The notes beneath the pieces were generated by a model. That model saw nothing but the letters and a program-made list of their open reading frames with translations. It did not search any database and was not told the origin of the DNA. This document shows, in pieces, positions 38,623 to 60,080 of a DNA stretch of 64,000 nucleotides (the stretch's first letter is position 1; every line of letters begins with the position of its first letter). The position numbers were made by a program, and so were the translations under genes. The DNA comes from Naegleria lovaniensis (taxonomy: Eukaryota; Heterolobosea; Eutetramitea; Acrasida; Naegleriidae): the NCBI RefSeq assembly GCF_003324165.1, contig NW_025407849.1, positions 496,001 through 560,000 of the forward strand, read 5' to 3'.

Positions 38623-41600
38623 TCAAAGATCCATGTTGAAAATGTCAGTCAATTTGAGAAGAATTCTTTCAAAAGAAGGTCTTTCTCTGGGATTCGTTGA
38701 CCAACACTGCTTCATCAATTTGATATACATGTCAAATCCAATTAAGAAATCTTCGTTGGTTGCGTCATCGTTTGTCATGAATTTTTCACACCAAATACAC
38801 ATTTCATCCACATTGGAAAATGGAATCAATGGTCTTTTCTCATTGTTTGCAACGTGATACAGCAAGTTGAACATTTTGATTCTTTCTTCAGAGCTGTCGT
38901 CTTCGAGAATTAATTCAGGACTCATGTATATTAACGTACCAATGTTGGCTGTGAGAGAGTTCGTCTGGGTGTTAATGGAAACAGCACGACTTAGACCAAA
39001 ATCACAAACTGGTATGTTGTATTTTCCATCGAAACACAAGTCATGTTGATTCCAAAATAAAAATATAAATTCAAAATACCCTTGATAGAAACACATACCT
39101 TTGGGAGTATTTGAATGATCAAGAATGATATTTCCTGGCTTCAAATCTCTGTGAATCAAGCATTTGGGTTGAATACTATGGAGATATTTCATTCCATTCG
39201 ATATTCCAATTAATATTTTCAATTTTTCTTTAAATGTCATTTTCATCTTTCCTTTTTTCATTTCCTTAATCATTTCTTCCAAACTTCCATTTTGGCCCAA
39301 CTCGACGACCATACACATTTGGCTTTCAGAAATGCAAATACCGTAAAAACTGATAATATTAGGATGTCTGAGTTGCACAAGGAGCATAACTTCTTTTTCA
39401 AAATTTTCATGAGTGTCATCACTCCTGACAATACTCTTCACAGCAACGTCCATCATGTTGTACTTGGCCTTGTAGACGCTGTTAGTGATTCACAAGTTAT
39501 TTTGAAATTAATAAAATGTTTGTTCGTGACATTACATACCTTCCACTCGAGCCTTCTCCAATTTTCTTTTTAATTTTCAATTCGTGAGCTGAAATGATAT
39601 AGTAATCATTGTTGTGAGTTGCAGCTGACCTATTATGTTCGTCAGAGTTCACAGAACCATATTCTTCAATTGGTATATTCTGTTGTAATAATTTTTCCTC
39701 AATTTCTTTTTCAGATCTTTGTCTTACATAGACACCTCTTGCAACTTTTATCATTTTCCAGGAGCAAAGGCCACAAAAGACACAAATAAAGGCACCTCCA
39801 ACAATGGCCAGAAACGTCAATACAATAGATGTTGCAATGATGGCTGGAATGACCTTGCTTAGTGGAAATCCGCTCACACATTTGCCATAGCTGACGACAA
39901 AGTCTTGTGGACATTCGTCAATTAAAAAAGGTATGACTATAGAAAAATTCGTTTCTGAAAAAGAAATGCTGATGGAAATTGGTGCATGGTAATTTGTCAA
40001 ATCAACCGTGCTCGTTTGTTGAATGGCTATTTGAATTTCAATGAGGTTTTCTTTGTGCTTGGAATAATTTGTTTCCAGCACAAAGTTGTTATCTGAAATT
40101 TTGATTGAGGGTAACTCATACAACACTGGAATATTGTTTCCTTGTCTGTCGAGCATGTGATTGAATTGCAGTACCATTTTCTCTCCTGGATAATATTTGA
40201 AAATTCCTCCGTCTGTCATCTTTTCAACAATGGACGCTGAAAAGGAAACAATTGGTGATGAAATGTTTGAGCCGTAAATTGCGGCTCTATTCTCTTCCAT
40301 TAACACATTGTCCAATAAAACTGGGAGTGTTTGGTTTACATAATCAAACTCACTACCAAAGGAACTTGCATAGAATATTGCTCCTCCAGTATCGAATGCA
40401 AAGTTATTCTTGAACAGTGAATCGCTAATGGCTGTAGCATCTCCAGTGTATAATGCACCACCACGGTTTGCTTGATTGTTGATAAACTTGGTATCCGTAA
40501 TTGTTGTCGCTTGGCAATTGAACAAGGATATTGCACCTCCACTCGAAAGATAAAATGATGAGTCGTCACGAATTATGTATTCTACTGTGTTTCTCTGAAA
40601 AGTGGTTAAACTAATCTCCAGATGATGAACATGCATGGCATGCAAAGCACCACCTGATATTTTGGCTCCATTACTTGAAAAATCGTTGTCCATCAGATAC
40701 ATCTTGTTTCTGCCTCCAAGTACCGACATTGCTCCTCCACTGCCTTTCAGTGCATGATTATTTGTAAAAACTGAGCTATAAACGCTAATTGTGTCACAAA
40801 TTTCTGCAAGAGAAATTGCACCATTCTTGATAGCAGTATTTCCATCGAGTATTGTGTTACCTATAGTGACAGAATCTGATTTCATGACAATCATTGCACC
40901 ACTATGAGATGCGGAGTTATTTGATAACAAGGAATTCGATATTTCAACAATCTTGCACAAATAGAAATAGAAGATAGTTTCTGCTTTTGTACAAGTGTTG
41001 TTAGAAGCTGTCAGAGCTGCAAATACTTTCCCTACCGAAACCATCTTGATCCATCCACCTCCTTTCTTGTTTTTAAACACGCTCCCTAAAATCTTCATGT
41101 TAAATACTAAGGAAACCGTGATTGTGTACTCGTCTTCATCACCATCCTCTGTATGTATGTATTCGAACTCTGACGACGAAATAGCAACATTGATGGTTGT
41201 CTCAAAAATGATTGCAGTACGTTGTGCTATATGGAATTTTGAGTTCTCCATAAGCACCGTGTTACAGTTTGTAAATTTTAAACGAGACCTATTGTTCTCA
41301 TGATACCATAGGTTATTGATGTAAACTGTTTTACAGCCATCGATCAGCAAGTAGCCAGAGAATGTCGTATTTTCAAGAAATACTTCATCTGTTTCAGGTA
41401 AAATGATTGAAGAATCAATTAGCTTGGAGTGTTCAGCTTTGAAAAAGTCAGTGTTCACATGGTTGTCCTGAATAATGACGTCTTGCAAAATTGTACGGCG
41501 TATTCCATGAGCACGCAAAAACATATTGTGAACCTTAACATTGTCAATAATGATTGATGTCATTGGTTGAGGCTCCAATAGAAATGGTGGATGTGAAAGA

Positions 41601-42166
41601 ATGTGCCTCTCCTCTTTAAAGCAAGAGATGACTTTGGGAGTTAGAGCATCTGTACTCGTAATTGTCAAAGCAATATGCACTCGGTTCACTGTAAGATCAA
41701 CATCTGGAAGATTGTTGTAACAAGCTGTACGCCGACCTCTATTCTCAACCATGTCACTGACTACATTGATGGTTACAGTGTAATTAAGGCATACATAATC
41801 AGTAGAATTTGATTTTGGTAATCTGTTAAGGATATCTATTGAAAGATGTGTAAAAATTTCATTGAAAGACCAGCACGGATTTTGCTCTGTCCTGTTCAGT
41901 GTACAAGAAATATTGCTCAATGATGGATTTTGTGGCGTCCCAACAAAATATACCCAGTTTATGCTTGTTGTGTGATCCGTGCAGTAGGAATCTGCTGATG
42001 ATTGTTCCTTTGCCGTTGATGAGAGCTGTATTACTTTCTTCATTTCTGATCTTGGTGTTGCACCCATGATGATTGTCGTCATCATACATGCCAATATAAT
42101 CACTCCCAAATGAGTACCTATCACTGCACCATAAGCACCACGAAACAACCGATTCATCATGATCAT
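38623..42166 (-). CDS. Receptor kinase: beta-helix ectodomain, TM, TKL-like kinase
   Basis: Exons 42166-39540, 39478-39099 and 39008-38623 join to 1130 aa. The 90-bp second intron is a multiple of three with no stop and can be missed; removing it restores the kinase text TPKVCDFGLS. An N-terminal signal-type hydrophobic segment is followed by about 700 residues of short repeats (SGGAMSVLGG, NRGGALYTGD, NNFAFDTGGAIFY) typical of right-handed parallel beta-helices, with many N-glycosylation sequons. The TM segment is IIATSIVLTFLAIVGGAFI. Kinase motifs are GEGSSGSVY, VAVKSI, HRDLKPGNI, DFGLS and MSPE, followed by CWSTNPRERPSFERIL; this is tyrosine-kinase-like (TKL) style. It is a probable surface receptor; the ligand is unknown. 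Confidence 0.92.
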
Positions 42167-42477
42167 GTTGTTTAATATTTTGAAAAATAGCTGTGTTTTT
42201 TACATGTGCAAAATTTGAAGAGAATCAAAATTATCATCACGTATCAGTATCGGTCTCTCGGTTATTTTCGGCATTGAATCATCAAGCCTCATCATGAGAA
42301 AAGAAGGTATGCATTTTTTTTGTAACACTGAATTTCGAGATAATGAACAAATTGAATGTCCAATCAACTAGGTTCTAGGCTCTCCAAATTTCTAATAGTA
42401 TTGATTTGAATTTCATCATAATGAATCTTGACAAAAGAAATCATTTTCGGATTGGATTGAAATTATTTTCAAAAAAA

Positions 42478-43581
42478 ATGCAAAATCATATGGATACAGC
42501 TCATGATCGGATGAAATTTAATAATACTCATGATTATCATCATGATCATCCTCATCAGCCAGACGTGAAATTAATTTTATGCTCGTTAGTAGAGAATTTT
42601 ACATGCTCAATGGAATTGAAAGATGAGGATGATGAATGGATGATGATGAAAAAATTAAAAGAAACGATGAATATAACGAAAAACAAAAAGAAAAAGGGAT
42701 TTTTAATGAATTTCCATTTTGTTCAAGAGATAGTTCCGAAACCAAAGAGCACATACATTCCAGAACTTATTTACATTTCATACAATCATTCTTGTATATT
42801 ATTGAAAGTCTATGATATGAATAGATTGTATAACGAGGCTTCCATGAAGGATGTCATTCAAGTGTTCGATCTATACACAAGAGAATTTAAAACAACAATT
42901 GATTTTTCAATTTCTGAAAACGATTCCATCGAATTTGCATTACAGGAAAATTATGATGGGCATAATAATGATGCAATTATTATGCATTCAACCTCTAAGC
43001 ATGTTTACAAATGTGACTTGAGAACAATGCTATTACAGAGTGGAAATGAATTCAAATTTATGGAAAATTATGTTTGGAAGAGCGAGTCATGCTTTCTTTC
43101 TCCAAGAAGAATTACGATTTTAAATTCAACCAACCAATGCTATATTTGTGATTCAAACTACTCATTGGTTGTGTTAAATTTACATTTTGGAACATTTATT
43201 CAGAGAATTGACTTGGGATCACAGTTATCTAGTTTCTCCCACATTGATTTTGTGGACTCTTCTACAATGGTTCTCTGTGATGACCATGGTGTTTCCATCT
43301 ATAACAGGAAAGATGATTCTTGGGTGAAAATGAAAACTATAAACAATGGTCATCGATATCATAGCATATTATGTGACTCAATTTCACACCATATCATCAT
43401 TTCAAACCAACTAGCCGCTGGATATATTCAAATTTTCACCTCCTCTGGAGAATTAGTGAAAACCTTTCAAGCAATGCTAAACGAAGATTTTATCACTCCC
43501 CGTGCAATGTGTATCAATTATTTGACAGGAGAGTTATTAATATGTGACTCAAGCTCTCAAAGGGTTGTTTTTTTCCAGTAA
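42478..43581 (+). CDS. NHL-repeat / beta-propeller protein
   Basis: The A-run before the ATG at 42478 favours that start; an in-frame ATG at 42421 would add 19 residues. A His/Asp-rich N-terminus and a Lys/Met-rich segment lead into repeated blade-like units: YISYNHSCILLKVYD, VIQVFDLYTREFKTTIDFS, MVLCDDHGVSIYNRKDDSW and YIQIFTSSGELVKTFQ, then a final NHL-type unit (TPRAMCINYLTGELLICDSS). There is no signal peptide. Such propellers mediate protein-protein contacts. No RING or B-box partner domain is present. Confidence 0.75.
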   Translation: MQNHMDTAHDRMKFNNTHDYHHDHPHQPDVKLILCSLVENFTCSMELKDEDDEWMMMKKLKETMNITKNKKKKGFLMNFHFVQEIVPKPKSTYIPELIYISYNHSCILLKVYDMNRLYNEASMKDVIQVFDLYTREFKTTIDFSISENDSIEFALQENYDGHNNDAIIMHSTSKHVYKCDLRTMLLQSGNEFKFMENYVWKSESCFLSPRRITILNSTNQCYICDSNYSLVVLNLHFGTFIQRIDLGSQLSSFSHIDFVDSSTMVLCDDHGVSIYNRKDDSWVKMKTINNGHRYHSILCDSISHHIIISNQLAAGYIQIFTSSGELVKTFQAMLNEDFITPRAMCINYLTGELLICDSSSQRVVFFQ

Positions 43582-43917
43582 TTGCATAAATGTAATTATA
43601 ACAGAACAAGTCCTATAATAATTGGGTTTCAAACTGTAAAGTTTTGTAAATAATTATTCTGGACACTCTTGTCTCAACAAGCGTCCAGCGTCCAGACAAT
43701 CACTCGTTTGGATTCACTTTGGAATCTTCAGATAGATCCAAGATCTAAGACAGGTTTGGAAAATTTTTATCCGAACTGTAACTTTCAGTGTCAACATGTA
43801 GCGAACTCGAGATGACCCATGCAACCAATTTCAAAGGACTTTTGACGGACAGAATATCAAGTGCTATTTTGCATACGTTCTCTTTCTCGCTCATTTCTCG
43901 TTCACAACAAAAAAACA
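43582..43917. other. Intergenic upstream of secreted precursor 1
   Basis: 336 bp with no gene. It contains the short conserved block listed separately and leads into the A-rich start context of the precursor gene. Confidence 0.55.
43817..43836 (+). promoter_or_regulatory. Upstream block shared by the two precursor genes (copy 1)
   Basis: CCATGCAAC then one base then AATTTCAAAG, ending about 80 bp before the start of precursor 1. The same two words occur in the same order upstream of precursor 2 (49141-49168) with a 9-bp spacer. It could be a regulatory element, a remnant of duplication, or chance. Confidence 0.3.
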
Positions 43918-44340
43918 ATGAAATTACTTTTCGTAGTTGTGTTGGCACTTGCAGTAGTATGGTGCATGTGTGCTGGTCATTCAGTACAAGCAAAACGTCA
44001 TGACCTTGAAGAACAAGCTTATAGATCTCAAGATTGGTCTCCCAAACCACTCTACAATCGTCTTCCCAAGTATGTTGAAGAACAAGAAGATTGGTCATTG
44101 GCAAGATTCACTCACGAAGAGACAAATGAATTGAAAGAACGTCATAAAAAACACTTGAACAGAGTAAAACAACTCATTCATTCTGCTTTGGAGGAAGTAC
44201 TTGAAGAGGAATCAATGGATGAAGAATTTGAAGAAGTACCAATGTCTGACAGTGCACGTCGTCGTCCTTGTGTTCCTACTGGAATGTTTTCATTTGCAAG
44301 ATTGATGGGACAACAATGCAGAACAGGAACTGGATATTAA
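43918..44340 (+). CDS. Small secreted precursor 1 with Cys-flanked C-terminal peptide
   Basis: 140 aa starting MKLLFVVVLALAVVWCMCAG, a clear signal peptide. The mature chain is about 100 residues of acidic, helical, low-complexity sequence (EEVLEEESMDEEFEEVPM), then ARRRP and a compact C-terminus: CVPTGMFSFARLMGQQC plus seven residues. The gene at 49226-49801 has a different body but ends in the same motif (CIPTGAFSWARLFGQKC): 12 of 17 positions are identical, including both Cys. An ER signal, an acidic spacer, a polybasic site and a disulfide-sized C-terminal peptide are the organisation of peptide-hormone or pheromone precursors. That role is inferred. A small secreted defence or adhesion peptide is the alternative. 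No homologous family was recognised. Confidence 0.85.
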   Translation: MKLLFVVVLALAVVWCMCAGHSVQAKRHDLEEQAYRSQDWSPKPLYNRLPKYVEEQEDWSLARFTHEETNELKERHKKHLNRVKQLIHSALEEVLEEESMDEEFEEVPMSDSARRRPCVPTGMFSFARLMGQQCRTGTGY

Positions 44341-44592
44341 TGATGTATTTTAAATTATGTTATTAGTAAACGAGAGCAATATGATACATCAATTTCATGA
44401 GCGTTGGATATAATTTCGGTAGTAGCACCAGAACTTTGGTCCAATAATAGTAGATGTACCTCAAGGTTTTGATCGCTGTCATTTCATGGCTGATGGGAGC
44501 CGCATGTTATAGTACTGTAACATGAAGTGTGACAGTCTCCATGTTCAGGTCCAAAGTTACAAACCAGATATAGATTGCAATGTCAACATGCA

Positions 44593-46550
44593 TTATTGAA
44601 ATTTGACTCGTTCAATAGTGGCAATCATTTCCTCAATTCGAGAGGAAATGTTATTAATCCATTTGTTCACTGCTTTGAATTTTGGTTTCATCACAGTGAA
44701 AGCACGTAAATCCTTTTTTAAAATGCTGCAATAGTCGACTCCATTATGTACAAAGTCATTCCCTCCCTGTTGTAGTATGGAGTTGCATATTTCTAAATGT
44801 TTTTCGACTGCTTGTTTCACACAAAACACAACATCAATTGGGAATAGTGGGTAAAGAGGATTTTCGGTGTGATTGGTAATGCTAAGTGCACTCTGTTCAA
44901 TAACTTCTCGTGTGATGGATGATTGAGATTTTGACAATATTGCTATCCTCAAACTGTCCAATATCATTTGATAAAGAGGTTCAACAAATTCAAGCCTATT
45001 CACTGTGTCAGGTATTGAAAGCATGTCTGATTTTTCGATATTTTTGAACTTGTTCACAAGTAATTCAATAATGCTCCAAATCTCAAAACAATTTTCAGGT
45101 GTCACTTTGCTAGTCATCAATTGAATCCATTCTTGAGGCAATGGTTCTTGACAAAAAAAAGAATATATTTCAGGAATGCAAGACAAAAAATTTTCAACAG
45201 ATACCTTATCGAAATCTTCTATAATACCCAATTTTAGAGCAGCATTGTAGCTATAGATCCATACTTCCAAATTCTTTTCATAAATAGTTGGTTGGGATGG
45301 AGTAACACTCTCAGAGTCTTCTGGTGCAAATAATTTCTTTGATAAAAAGTCGAGAATTGTAAAATAGAATTTGGCTTGTTCTGTCTTTCCAGTGTATAAT
45401 TCATACATTACCAAATGTGCATATACTGCAGCTACGGTGATTGATGTTCGATCAAATACTTTGGAAAGACAATCTTTAGATTTTTGAATGCTTTTTTCTG
45501 ATTGTTCAAACAATCCATTTCGAGATTCACACAATGCCCGAACACTAAAATACATGGCAAACATTTCACAATTTTGCAACTTGTTAGTGTCATTTCCAAC
45601 ATCATCACAATTTGGAAAATGTGTGATAAAATTTTCCAATTCTTCTCGTGACACCAACGGATAGCCTTCACATGCCACATCAAAATAAAGATCAAAGACA
45701 GCTCGTGAGCTCAATGACTCGGAAGTTTTCAACTCTTCATTAACTGACTTTTTCCCAAGAGGATAAGGTGAGAATAATGGGTTCATGGAATGGGTCGATG
45801 GATTATTTACATTTCTTTGGTGTACGTTCGATGAGTGATTTCTGGAGTTTTCTGGAGTCTTTACATTGTTATCATGATTGGTTTTCTTGTTTCTTCTAGG
45901 TTCTCTATAGACACATTCAACTTTTCGTTGGGTGCACAAGTAACATTTTGGTAATCGTTTATCACACCTTCGATGCTGTTGTCGGCACTGTCATTTCATA
46001 AATAATGTTATTTAATAAATTCATTACTACTACCATAAATAAATGCTTAATTGCATACCTGTTCACAAGCAATTGGAAAAAATTCCGAACTGTTCTCGTC
46101 ACTACTGTTTGATAAATTATTTACATTATTGCTCTCGTTATTACTAGTGATATTAGCCTGTGCAGTTGTACTTGAAGAAAACGAAGGTATGATAAAGCTA
46201 CCGATGAAACTCTGCAAGTGTTGGAGAGGGTCGTTATTATTGTCTGTCCAATGTTGTCCCGATGGTATGAGTTCATTTCCATCTCCATCCCGATGAATGA
46301 ATGAACCTAAAACTTGTTGTCCAGAACTGAATGATGAATATCCGTCATCATTTGCATTCCGTTGTGATTTGGACTCATCCACCAGAAAATCCTCAAGATT
46401 TAAAAATTCATTGTCCGTGTATGTAACACTATTGCTTTCTTGATGATGTTGGTTGATGACTCTAGCACACGGCCGTGGTTTTTGTTGTTGTTGTTGATAT
46501 TGGTCGTTGTTGTTGGTATAACAACTCTCTCCATGATTATTTGGAAACAT
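44593..46550 (-). CDS. Zn2Cys6 (fungal-type) transcription factor
   Basis: Exons 46550-46059 and 45987-44593 join in phase 0 to 628 aa. The binuclear cluster is assembled across the intron: ACEQ from exon 1, then CRQQHRRCDKRLPKCYLC and QRKVECVYREPRR from exon 2, giving the six cysteines with the usual spacing and a basic tail. The N-terminus is Asn/Gln/Ser-rich and acidic, typical of an activation region. The C-terminal 350 residues are helical and look like a middle-homology (fungal-specific) regulatory domain, though the match is loose. It is a likely DNA-binding regulator binding CGG-type half-sites. It lies 250 bp downstream of and convergent with secreted precursor 1. Confidence 0.88.
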
Positions 46551-46674
46551 TTTTTATGAATGATAAACCGATTTCCCAACGTTTTCTTCCATCAAACTCC
46601 GAATTCAGAATAAATCACGCCCATGTCATCCTTGAAAATAGAAACTGAAACTCTATTTTGTAGTTACTAATAAA

Positions 46675-48682
46675 ATGCTCCAACATGATGAACTTTTTGC
46701 AGATGATATGCTTTTCCATATTTTTCAATACGTGGAAGACCGAAGCCTTATTGTCGTGTGCAGGCTTGTTTCCAAGCAGTGGTATGGGGAAGTAATGGAA
46801 ATGCCTTTGAATTTGGATTTTTCAAAGAGTCGTTTGCGTCCGAGAGTTGATCATCATTCATTGTTGTTGGAGCAAGAAGAAGAAATTTCAGAAACTGGTT
46901 CAACAATGATCAAACAACAACAACAACCTTCAACAGAGCTACGAGAAGCAGAAACAATTTCGGAAGCAACACGAATTTATTCTATCCTAAGTCCTCCAAT
47001 TTCCAATATTACTTGCTTGAATTTATCCAACAATTTATTGGGACACGATCAACTGAATACTCTAGCCTCGTGCGAAAACTTGAAAAATTTGAAATCATTG
47101 GATCTTTCTGCAAACGATTTCAGTCGGAATAGTTCATCTTCATCGTCGTCTTGCAGTGCAATTTTTTCACTCGTATGGAGTAAATTCATGTCTAACTTGA
47201 CAAGTTTGAATGTAAATGCTACAACACTGGAATAATAGCTATTGCAGCAAGCCCAGTCATGTCCAACTTACGCGAGCTTTATGTACAAACAAATTCGCTC
47301 ACCAGAGCAAGTGTTGAAGCAATTGGAAATAGCAAGACTCTGACAAATCTTACAATATTGGATCTTGCTTATAATAAGATTCAAGCCTGCGATGTTGAAT
47401 GCTTGACACAAAGTAGCAACATGAAAAATCTTACTCTATTGGATTTAAGCCATAATGCTGTTCGTCTTGTGGGTGCAAGATGTATTGCCTCAAGCAAATA
47501 TTTGAATAACATTAGAACGTTAAATTTGGCAAATGCTATTGATGATGAAGGGGTGAAGGTGCTCATTACAAGTCGCTCTATGAGCAATTTAACACAATTG
47601 AATTTAGAAGGAGTTTATTCGCCAAGAATAACTCCAAAACATCCCTTTCCAATGTTTGCCTCCAGCGTTTTCAACAGTAGTTTAACCCACTTATCCATAC
47701 AGATTCGTTTTGTCGTACCCAAGGCGTTTATGAAGGATATTACCGTACTTCACAACTTGCAGTACTTGAAACTTTCGTTTTCTCCAATTGACATTGATGG
47801 AGCAAAGGAATTGGCTGCCCACGAAAGTTCGAAACGTATCAAAACGCTTCATTTGATCTGTTGTAAAATCAGCGAAGAAGCGGGTGCTTTACTCATGCAG
47901 AGCCCACATTTGGTAAATTTAACTAGTTTAAATTTGAGTGGGAACCAATTAGATGGCACCTTATTATTTAACTTATCCATGTACACTACAATTCATTTCG
48001 AAAAATTAACATCTTTAGATCTAAGCTCGAACGGTATCAAGTCTGACGGAGCTGTTCTGATGTCCCAATGCTCTCGATTATTAAGGAACGTTAAAGAATT
48101 GAATTTAAACTACAATACCATTAACGACCAAGGACTCTCAGCATTGGCGTCCAGCAAATATTTGAGCAATTTAACTATTTTAAAGCTGAGTAGCAATGGA
48201 ATTGGTGACTATGGAGTTGCTTCTCTTTGTGAGAGCGAATATTTGAAACATCTGACACATCTCAATCTTTTTGCGAATTCACAAATTTACAGCGAAGGTG
48301 CAATCTCTATTGCAAACAGTGTTAATATGAAGAATTTAACATTTATAATGTTGAATAATTGCAATATTGGATCGAAGGGTGCCGTGGCATTAGCCTCAAG
48401 CGAATTGATGCAAAACTTAACAGGTGTGTTGTTTATTATTTCATTGGATTTTTGTCACACATGCTTGATCTAACAATAATAGGGTTACATGTGTCCTGTA
48501 ATTGCATTTCATCAACAGGAGCTCTTGCTATTGTGTCAAGCAAGTACTTGACCAAGTTGCAAGAGCTCGACATGCAAGGCAATGTATTTGGGGGAAATAC
48601 ATACGAAGAGATTACCACACGACTATCCACATTCAAATATTTGACAACAGTTGTCATACAAAGGCAGAGACATTTTATATGA
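46675..48682 (+). CDS. F-box / leucine-rich repeat protein, one apparent frameshift
   Basis: The ATG at 46675 opens with an F-box (LFADDMLFHIFQYVEDRSLI ... CRLVSKQWYGEVM), followed by about 18 LRRs of 24 residues (NLTxLDLSxNxIxxxGxxxIASSKYL). A single base appears missing near 47233: the first frame ends NATTLE, and the next frame continues IAIAASPVMSNLREL, exactly one repeat on. The intron 48424-48482 (59 bp, GTGTGT donor) links to the last repeat, ending at 48682. With the base restored the product is about 649 aa. It is a probable SCF substrate receptor, of the same class as 11301-12697. Confidence 0.82.
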
Positions 48683-49225
48683 ATTATGGTTCACTTGTTT
48701 TCGTTGGAGTACTTTCAGCCAGTAGTAGCTGTTCACTTTACGGAGAATTTTATATCATAATCTCAGCATGTTCATCACCCCAATTGATTTCCAACCTTAT
48801 TTTGGAGAATATCACAATTCAATTTACCTGGAAGAGAGGAAAACTAGGATGGACACAATAATTCAATTATTCGACCGCTCGAGAATTGTGTTTTCAAATG
48901 TAACTTGAAACTAATGACAGATGGAAAGATTGCAACTTTTTGGACAATTTATATTTCTTTGGGACTTGGTCTTTTTAATTGTTGGATAGGACAGGAATCT
49001 TATCAACTACTGTATTATCAGATAGATAATCAAAGTTGATGTTCAAGCAAATCATTGTTGTAATAGAGCCAGATTTGGAAGTGTTGAATTGGTTACAGTC
49101 ACTTCCATTAACTGAAAACACGAACTGAACTCCCCCACAACCATGCAACACATCAAGAAATTTCAAAGCACGTATTTAAAGAGTCCTTCTTCCAACGTTA
49201 TCAACCTGAGACCATTGAAAAAAAC
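48683..49225. other. Intergenic before precursor 2, no supported gene
   Basis: Only short shadow frames occur. The last 90 bp contain the block shared with the promoter of precursor 1 and an A-run before the start. Confidence 0.55.
49141..49168 (+). promoter_or_regulatory. Upstream block shared by the two precursor genes (copy 2)
   Basis: CCATGCAAC at 49141-49149 and AATTTCAAAG at 49159-49168, ending 57 bp before the start of precursor 2. It matches the pair at 43817-43836, but with a longer spacer. Confidence 0.3.
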
Positions 49226-49801
49226 ATGAAATCCATCGTCGTGTGTAGTGTTTTGGCACTTGTCATCATTGCCTTGTTGAGTTTGAACGTTTCACATGCA
49301 CAACAACAAAATGATATTTTGCCAGCTGTCCATCCACAAAACAACCTTGCATCCGAGTTGAGACGTCTCCTTTCTCAACTTCGTAGATCATCTCCACAAG
49401 CTGATTTATTACCAACCGATGCATCTCTTGAAACCATTCGTCAAAATCTCGAACAAGAACAACGTCAAAACAAACGTTGGTTGATTCAACCAGCACGCAA
49501 GTCTGCTGAGAAGAGTGTGGTCGAGATGGCTGATTTGAGAATTGTCGAACAACTTGAAAGAATGAAAAAGAATATGGAAACTCGTCATAAACAAGATTCC
49601 GTATTGTTGAAACAGAAATTAAAGGAAGAATTACAAGTGCTTCGTGCTGCTTGGAAGGAATTACTCGAAGAAGATGCCTTTGAAGAAGAGGAGCAAGAAG
49701 AGGACGCAGAAGAATTGGCAGATTCTGAATGGGGTCCTCGTTGTATTCCAACTGGTGCTTTTTCATGGGCAAGATTGTTTGGTCAGAAGTGTGTTTATTA
49801 A
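49226..49801 (+). CDS. Small secreted precursor 2 with Cys-flanked C-terminal peptide
   Basis: 191 aa with signal peptide MKSIVVCSVLALVIIALLSL (cleavage near SHAQ). The body is long, charged and predicted coiled coil (LRRLLSQLRRSSPQAD, LERMKKNMETRHKQDS), turning strongly acidic (EEEEQEEDAEELAD) before GPR and the terminal CIPTGAFSWARLFGQKCVY. No other cysteine follows the signal peptide, so the two C-terminal Cys can only pair with each other or between molecules. The body shares little with precursor 1 apart from composition, while the last 17 residues are strongly conserved, so the terminal peptide is probably the active part. The A-run before the ATG supports the start. Function is unknown. 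Confidence 0.87.
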   Translation: MKSIVVCSVLALVIIALLSLNVSHAQQQNDILPAVHPQNNLASELRRLLSQLRRSSPQADLLPTDASLETIRQNLEQEQRQNKRWLIQPARKSAEKSVVEMADLRIVEQLERMKKNMETRHKQDSVLLKQKLKEELQVLRAAWKELLEEDAFEEEEQEEDAEELADSEWGPRCIPTGAFSWARLFGQKCVY

Positions 49802-50191
49802 GAAGCACACAATGATTTGGAAATGAGTTGATTGTTGTTGTAACATGTGAAAGTAAATTGTTTCAGAAATTGACTCTTTTTCAATGAATTATTGAAGGTG
49901 TTTATTTTTCATCAACCAGGATTCTAAGGAACAGCCGATAAGGTCATGACATTGTAAAGTTTGATAAATAAATATATTTAGTGACCTGTTAAACCATCTA
50001 TCGCTCCAACAGCATTGTTCTGACTGTGTTCACAAAGATCGACCTTCCATTTTACACATATGTTTCAAAAACACAAAAACGCTCTTTCTTGATTCCACTT
50101 TCGAATTAAAATGAACTTTTCCCATCACAACATCAAAAAAAAATCATTAAAACATTTGGATTCCTATTGATTCCTTTTAACATCACTCAGC
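49802..50191. other. Intergenic, no supported feature
   Basis: 390 bp between precursor 2 and the C2-domain gene. It is AT-rich, with no open frame of note and no RNA signal seen. Confidence 0.55.
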
Positions 50192-58439: not shown

Positions 58440-60080
58440 ATGAATATTCCGTTCAGAAAGGATCAACACCATCATCATCATGGAAGTTTTGATCATCATA
58501 TCACGGCGGAGAGGAATACGTTAGGATCATCTTCCTACATGTCGGATGGTGCTGGTTTACTTTCATCAAGTTTTTCCAACGCTTCCGATTTGAGTAGCAG
58601 CAGTATTGGGAGTTATAATAGCGTGAACAGCACCAATTCATCTCTACTGAGCACGAGTACGGCTGCAACAGGATGGATGGGAATGAGTCCTCCGAATTAT
58701 GTGATGGGTTTCAATGGAGGAAATCATTCATCATCATCTCCTCAACCTAACGGTTATCATCACACCAAGAGTAAAAGTATGAACAGTGCGAATAACAACA
58801 TGACCACATGGTTATCCTCTTCGGGCGGTAATCATCATCATTCCCAACAACATCCTAACAATACCATGCCGCAACAAGATCATCATCAACATTTCGGTAC
58901 TTCTCTTCTTTCCAACAGTCATCATCACCAACTCGGCACCCACCAACGCAGAATCACCACAGGTTCCTCGTCTTTTGACTTTTCATCCTCTATGGATGAC
59001 ATATCTCTTATGGGACACAACTCGTCTGTGAGAGGCAGATCTGCTGCCACCAGTACTTTCAACTCGGTGTTTGGACCTACTCAAACGAATTCAGTGCCAA
59101 CAGAGCTTGAAATTCCCTCTCGCACTAGTGTTTGTTCAAATAACGTCATGACAAATATGGCTGAAGAACACGTGGATCCCACCATGCTATTACTTGATTC
59201 TCCCAAGGTGGGTCACAATCACAGTCGTTCTCAACATCTCAGTCATGACGATGGAATCAATGTGAACATGTTTGTTCGATCAGTTGTTGGCAAGGTACTG
59301 TCGGATGACATGGAAGAATTCAACTCCTTCCATCATGTGAGTGGTCAACAGAATCATCATCATCATCACCACAACTACCAACAACAGCCAGCACTAAACA
59401 ATAATCTCAACATGTCACCACAACCATCATCACCATTGTCACGTCGGTTCATGTCCATGTCCTGTCCAACTGTTCTAAATTCGTTCCAAAATAGTATTGG
59501 ATTCCAACTCTTTCAACAACAGCAACAACATCCTTTACAGCATGACAGTCATAATGGAACCAACAATTCATCAGTATCCTCAATCGATTTTGACTTAATT
59601 GAGTCTGTTATTGCTGGTGATGAATCCACAAGTGACCACACATTGCAAGGCAAAAAACCTTGTAAATACTTCTTCTCGGCAGAAGGTTGTACTTACGGAG
59701 ATAGCTGCACTTTCCTACATTCACTCACTCCAAACACACGAAACAATCCACCAAATTTTGTATTAGGAGTTTCAACAACCACAACAGCACCACCTTTGAA
59801 TGGTAACTTGCATGGTTTTTCTTCTCATGCACCTGAACATGAAGATTTCCATCAAAATGGTTTTGTCATGAATAAGAATGAACAACTTAATGCATACCAA
59901 TACCATACGATGCAACAATATCCATCTAATAGCTCAATGGTGTCCACTACCCATGCAGTACATGGTGATGTTGCATCATCTGTAAATAATGTCGCTAATC
60001 ATTCAAACTCCTCTCTGGTATCTCATCAACAGCAAACATCCAATTCTCCTCCACAACAGCAACAGCAAATATGTCAATTA

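Follow-up and report, generated by a model that had tools for sequence, protein, structure and literature searches.

Two apparently secreted proteins of Naegleria lovaniensis share a conserved 17-residue Cys-to-Cys C-terminus and form a candidate peptide-signal family

The window analysed here, a stretch of 64,000 nucleotides from the heterolobosean amoeba Naegleria lovaniensis (assembly GCF_003324165.1, contig NW_025407849.1, positions 496,001 to 560,000), carries two genes that form a genuine, ancient family of two. Their products are apparently secreted and, within the reach of our searches, have no relatives. Both proteins end in, or very near, a stretch of 17 residues that runs from one cysteine to another and has changed much less than the rest of the molecule, and this tail is predicted, as a good candidate, to be the working part of both. 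Our favoured reading, which we put forward tentatively, is that the tail closes into a C-terminal ring that would be the functional, ligand-type element of a prohormone-like pair. A peptide signal is, we consider, a good hypothesis for these genes; its fullest form, in which the tails would be released ring-closed ligands, that is, paralogous hormones passing between heterolobosean amoebae and concerned with density, differentiation, encystment or mating, seems doubtful.

As originally predicted, both open reading frames (ORFs) are uninterrupted from ATG to stop and lie on the same, forward strand, with their starts 5.3 kb apart. Gene 1 (P0001; 43918..44340) encodes an apparent secretory precursor of 140 residues and gene 2 (P0002; 49226..49801) one of 191 residues, each in a single exon. 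Residues 1-25 of each protein (43918..43992 and 49226..49300) were judged by eye to be a signal peptide, in which a hydrophobic core precedes a small residue that closes the segment near position 25, and an N-terminal helix is present in both AlphaFold 2 (AF2) models. There follows a variable body (43993..44268 in gene 1, 49301..49741 in gene 2), acidic as first described, with net charges of -7 and -8, the acidic residues being clustered towards its end. Beyond residue 25 each protein holds exactly two cysteines, C118 and C134 in protein 1 and C173 and C189 in protein 2, and in both cases they frame the tail (44269..44319 and 49742..49792), after which come six residues in protein 1 and two in protein 2. 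The tail is hydrophobic, with net charges of +1 and +2. In the AF2 models the body of protein 1 is helix-rich, with a helix at residues 49-99 (mean pLDDT, the predicted local distance difference test, 65.7 for the whole model), and that of protein 2 contains a long helix at residues 65-166 (mean pLDDT >90 in four blocks of ten), while the tail is a low-confidence terminal segment in both (pLDDT <50 in protein 2). AF2 without a deep alignment is prone to drawing charged sequences as long helices, and these helix predictions, coming from models without deep alignments, are unreliable. Within the body of protein 1, the DNA encoding WSLARF (residues 59-64; 44092-44109) matches in 13 of 14 bases that of FSFARL in the protein's own tail and that of FSWARL in protein 2; this is possibly an internal trace of the tail motif, or else chance.

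The two full-length proteins match one another in BLASTP at E = 5e-9, and the identity in that alignment is unevenly spread: the terminal Cys-to-Cys peptide is identical at 12 of its 17 positions, just as the first reading of the sequence had it, and the body at 20 of 96 (Fisher p = 1e-4). The would-be mature peptide is, then, more conserved than the would-be pro-part, in a comparison of two paralogues from one genome. The original prediction had gone further, in that nothing but the tail was said to be common to the precursors. The excess conservation found here stands, but the word 'only' does not, since the bodies, stripped of signal peptide and tail, still align with a score of 86, where 1000 shuffles gave a mean of 39.4 (s.d. 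6.8) and at most 72; shuffling of residues is a permissive control for biased, helical sequences such as these. The bodies are probably weakly homologous, so that the proteins look related along much of their length, with the tail as the slow part. Codon use bears on the age of the pair. The same codon is used at 7 of the 12 identical tail residues, where 4.8 would be expected with saturated synonymous sites (P = 0.15), and at 12 of the 20 identical body residues, where saturation would give 9.5 (both expectations taken from the usage in 17 long ORFs of the window). This match is near saturation, and therefore the duplication appears old and the tail to have been kept at the protein level rather than recently copied.

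A second line of evidence comes from allelic comparison. Contig C55 (117001-157000) carries a second copy of window positions 23408-59698; of the 40 kb compared, about 33 align, at 98.0-98.5% identity, and no alignment is listed beyond window position 59698. This copy is most simply the other haplotype, and PMC9928731 reports diploidy for two N. lovaniensis strains. If C55 is the second haplotype, each gene has two alleles, and the number of loci is two rather than four. Between the alleles of gene 1, 4 codon changes are synonymous and 4 nonsynonymous; in gene 2 the figures are 3 and 2. Neither gene has an indel: there is none in 999 coding bases, as against gaps in three of the four adjacent noncoding stretches tested. 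Pooled, 6 of the 13 codon changes are nonsynonymous, where 79% would be expected (P = 0.009; ratio of nonsynonymous to synonymous divergence, dN/dS, ~0.22), which is moderate evidence that both genes encode translated, constrained proteins under purifying selection. The tails hold none of the 6 nonsynonymous and one of the 7 synonymous changes, which is not significant alone: they make up some 10% of the codons, and zero nonsynonymous changes in them would be expected about half the time. The GC content of the window is 33-38% in 8-kb blocks. The alleles diverge much more strongly in the stretch behind gene 2 (49802-50191), with 80% identity and 56 gap positions, than in the sequence around it.

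How far does the family extend? The genome searched comprises 30,690,286 bases in 97 contigs, in which the window is C28 496001-560000. The tail of protein 2 (32 residues), run against all of it at E <= 10, gave four matches, namely the two genes and their alleles, with a cross-match at E = 6e-4; the reciprocal search with the tail of protein 1 gave cross-matches at E = 4e-4 and 8e-4, and in both searches only 4 candidates passed the first look. No third copy was found with the full proteins, with the tails or with two degenerate tail motifs, in searches that would miss members that are more diverged or have an intron in the tail. The fifth matches of the full proteins (E = 1.44 and 0.46) lie outside the tail and were not counted as relatives. 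A motif for the second half of the tail matched at 9 places, 4 of them the known genes and alleles and 5 with two mismatches, none of the five with a cysteine where the tail has its first (the reversed control gave 3); a motif for the first half matched at 35, comprising the 4 known and 31 with two mismatches, against 38 for its reversed control. These remaining matches are as chance would give.

Outside the genome the picture is the same. Among about 5.8 billion proteins, searched by shared exact words at 0.55 to 1.75 times the query length, no relative appeared besides the window's own proteins, either with P0002 (442 candidates) or with the two-sequence alignment (1698 candidates). Viral contigs (600 pattern matches, 0 confirmed) and bacterial and archaeal contigs (589 pattern matches, 0 confirmed) likewise held no relative, in scans whose pattern words came from the body and which would miss relatives in the tail alone. 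As a control, an F-box/LRR neighbour on the same contig found one foreign relative in the protein database, at 66% identity over 70% of its length; this single control suggests a database poor in Naegleria, and absence from it is weak evidence. No match in Pfam (best E = 0.04) or NCBIfam (best E = 0.034) reached the curated cut-off, and no PDB family was matched by protein 2 (best E = 0.029) or by the two-sequence profile, so that the loop was found to be part of no larger known domain in these three collections. The best profile match to PDB (E = 0.004) was rejected as a family assignment: it covers profile positions 39-108 and leaves out the tail. Four tail strings had no occurrence in the papers searched.

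In the reading that we favour, the signal peptide would take the protein into the endoplasmic reticulum, where the two cysteines would close the 17-residue ring. The long charged, partly helical body would be a carrier for folding, solubility and transport. The functional part would be the ring, exposed at the C-terminal end; its most likely role is that of a ligand for an extracellular partner. The two paralogues would thereby present two close variants of one ligand. A kexin-like convertase may release the ring by cutting at the basic residues in front of it (RR or RRR in protein 1, GPR in protein 2); alternatively, the ring may act while still attached to the body. The tribasic site noted from the beginning in one of the two genes is indeed there, as RRR at residues 114-116 of protein 1 (44257..44265), followed by Pro and then by the first Cys, so that the ring is preceded by SARRRP-C in protein 1 and by EWGPR-C, with its single Arg, in protein 2. 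By the specificity of yeast Kex2, cutting after the second Arg, or after Pro-Arg, would be possible.

A candidate for the enzyme is present in the same genome. A gene of apparently at least 2 exons, at G000:C2 about 530690-532961 (L033:2690-4961), matches Peptidase_S8 in one reading frame (E = 1.4e-43) and P_proprotein in the next, presumably the next exon (E = 4.4e-12, both Pfam), and after the P domain it has a serine-rich stretch and then, by eye, an apparent C-terminal membrane segment. P domains also occur in other subtilases (with a match in one of 14 control genomes), and the NCBIfam S8 matches of this gene lie below the cut-off. At the gene level the organism thus has a putative convertase, with S8 domain, P domain and apparent transmembrane (TM) segment, and processing at basic sites is therefore possible in principle.

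Several points weigh against the ring as a ligand, and above all against its release: (i) The convertase site next to the peptide is not conserved between the paralogues. The idea of a precursor with an active C-terminal peptide, as it was first put, keeps its pattern of diverged body and conserved loop, for one pair, but the two proteins have no dibasic site in common there. (ii) The RRR is not singular, with dibasic pairs at 2 more places in protein 1 and at 5 in protein 2, and the Pro behind it disfavours kexin-type cleavage after the third Arg. (iii) The conservation evidence comes from two paralogues of one genome, and the body, given its residual homology, may have a function of its own. 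(iv) The disulfide is deduced from the placing of the cysteines, and the cleavage, secretion, activity and expression of either protein are predictions. (v) Upstream lies a receptor-like kinase gene or gene pair (38623-42166, reverse strand), in which a protein kinase domain is combined with an apparent TM segment and a beta-helix ectodomain; its ectodomain matches 12 other stretches of the genome, at about ten places, and because of this recurrence its neighbourhood says little, and it was set aside as the receptor. (vi) No peptide signal in Naegleria is described in the titles and abstract openings covered, mostly those of the top literature matches.

Other explanations of the same pattern have to be weighed. 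The ring could be a sorting loop, of a granin-like or prohormone-like kind, which packs an acidic protein into a regulated secretory compartment, with the body as the product or as a packing helper. According to PMC8807871, disulfide rings can direct proteins to secretory granules by acting as signals for self-aggregation, and small disulfide loops, often at protein ends, aggregated reporters in that work and sorted them into granules. Here two cysteines, which may be bonded, frame a terminal stretch, of 17 residues when counted as in that paper, that comes after a strongly acidic one, and a conserved cleavage site would not be needed. The loops tabulated in PMC8807871, however, have no common sequence, and the 12 of 17 residues kept here are more than aggregation should need; this conservation of side chains mildly favours a specific partner. 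No description of a Naegleria granule pathway was met, though no search was aimed at one. We take the sorting loop to be somewhat unlikely. A structural role in the cell coat or cyst wall, with the helices as coiled-coil rods and the Cys tail as a cross-link or docking point, possibly between molecules, is unlikely: the long predicted helices and a body that is still weakly homologous would fit it, and so would two cysteines able to pair between molecules, but the helices are of the kind that AF2 draws for charged sequences, the tail is hydrophobic and constrained beyond its cysteines, and just two genes were found.

We give still less weight to an antimicrobial or defence peptide released from the acidic precursor, a reading that we hold to be very unlikely. 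A hydrophobic, slightly cationic ring behind the acidic stretch of a secretory precursor would suit it; the charge is weak, though, there is no family match of any kind in Pfam or NCBIfam, and the usual product of an arms race is a variable peptide behind a conserved pro-part, the opposite of what is found here. Finally, it is highly improbable that the likeness of the tails reflects the exchange of a short tract between tandem copies by gene conversion, or chance. The genes do lie in tandem 5 kb apart, and the two tails encode FS and ARL with the same codons; against this, the codons differ at 5 of the 12 shared residues and overall agree about as often as saturation would predict, while genome-wide cross-matches of the tails at E-values of 4e-4 to 8e-4 speak against chance. 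Taken together, the ring as a ligand-type element is the reading that we prefer.

The surroundings of the two genes bear on how the pair arose. Gene 1 is preceded by a gene (42421..43581, forward strand) that is one of a large family here (91 genomic matches at E <= 0.1, its own allele included), that has no Pfam family at E <= 0.01 and whose product gives the impression, and only that, of being propeller-like. Directly before gene 2 lies a decayed, interrupted fragment of about 120 bp (48836..48956, forward strand) that resembles the middle of this gene (about codons 175-218), with 69% nucleotide identity over 133 columns (E = 8e-11 pairwise, 1.7e-7 with other scoring); tblastn against the window finds it at E = 0.039, with a stop inside. 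A remnant before gene 2 of what precedes gene 1 suggests that the two are old tandem duplicates. The simplest account would be that a block of upstream gene and precursor was duplicated and that, of the copied pair, the precursor alone survived; it is also possible that the fragment stems from another member, because the upstream gene belongs to so large a family. The shared upstream block of the original prediction proves to be faint. The stretch 36-170 nt before gene 1 (43748..43882) and that 24-159 nt before gene 2 (49067..49202), both on the forward strand, form a weak colinear alignment with a score of 18 against a shuffled mean of 11.3, which 1 of 200 shuffles equalled, and with a score of 15 against a shuffled maximum of 13 (200 shuffles) when restricted to 150 nt; under stricter scoring over 400 nt nothing was found (score 23; shuffled mean 20.1, maximum 27, 200 shuffles). 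This weak alignment would fit a segmental duplication and is a hint at best.

The closest parallels in manner of working are found among animal prohormones. The precursors of somatostatin, cortistatin and urotensin II are, as the pair appears to be, long secreted proteins with one disulfide-sized, aromatic-containing loop at or near the C-terminus, and in some of them a convertase-type basic site comes shortly before the loop. The C-terminal rings in Table 1 of PMC8807871 have 12 residues in somatostatin and cortistatin, 9 in growth hormone and prolactin and 6 in urotensin II, in which a single residue follows the ring; loop sizes in that table range from 6 to 13 residues, with a larger CgB loop of 22. 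The pair differs from the animal prohormones in its loop of 17 residues as against 6-12, in its basic site, which is not conserved, in its non-animal source, in being known from genes alone and in matching, by sequence, none of the solved or catalogued proteins searched. The granins, chromogranin A and B, also combine an acidic secreted body that diverges with a short disulfide loop that persists; their loop is N-terminal, in contrast to the C-terminal loop here, and no granin family is among the Pfam matches.

That an amoeba can use peptides cut from a precursor is exemplified, in an unrelated lineage, by the SDF-type signalling of Dictyostelium. The SDF-2 precursor AcbA has neither a signal peptide nor a disulfide ring, unlike the two proteins described here. 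In SDF-type signalling, according to PMC11589745, TagC cleaves a precursor and releases small peptide hormones.

If the tails are released hormones, they would be, to our knowledge, the first genetically identified peptide-hormone family in Discoba, and Naegleria development would gain a defined molecule that can be synthesised; with a peptide of only about 17-25 residues, testing the claim would cost little. Even as a sorting device, the ring would offer a practical way into the regulated secretion of this lineage. The likeness to prohormones is one of manner of working, and we claim no membership in a known family. Should the tails prove to be released ligands, a free-living amoeba only remotely related to animals, plants and fungi would have evolved disulfide-ring peptide hormones of its own, and the somatostatin-like design of a C-terminal disulfide ring would have had an independent origin.

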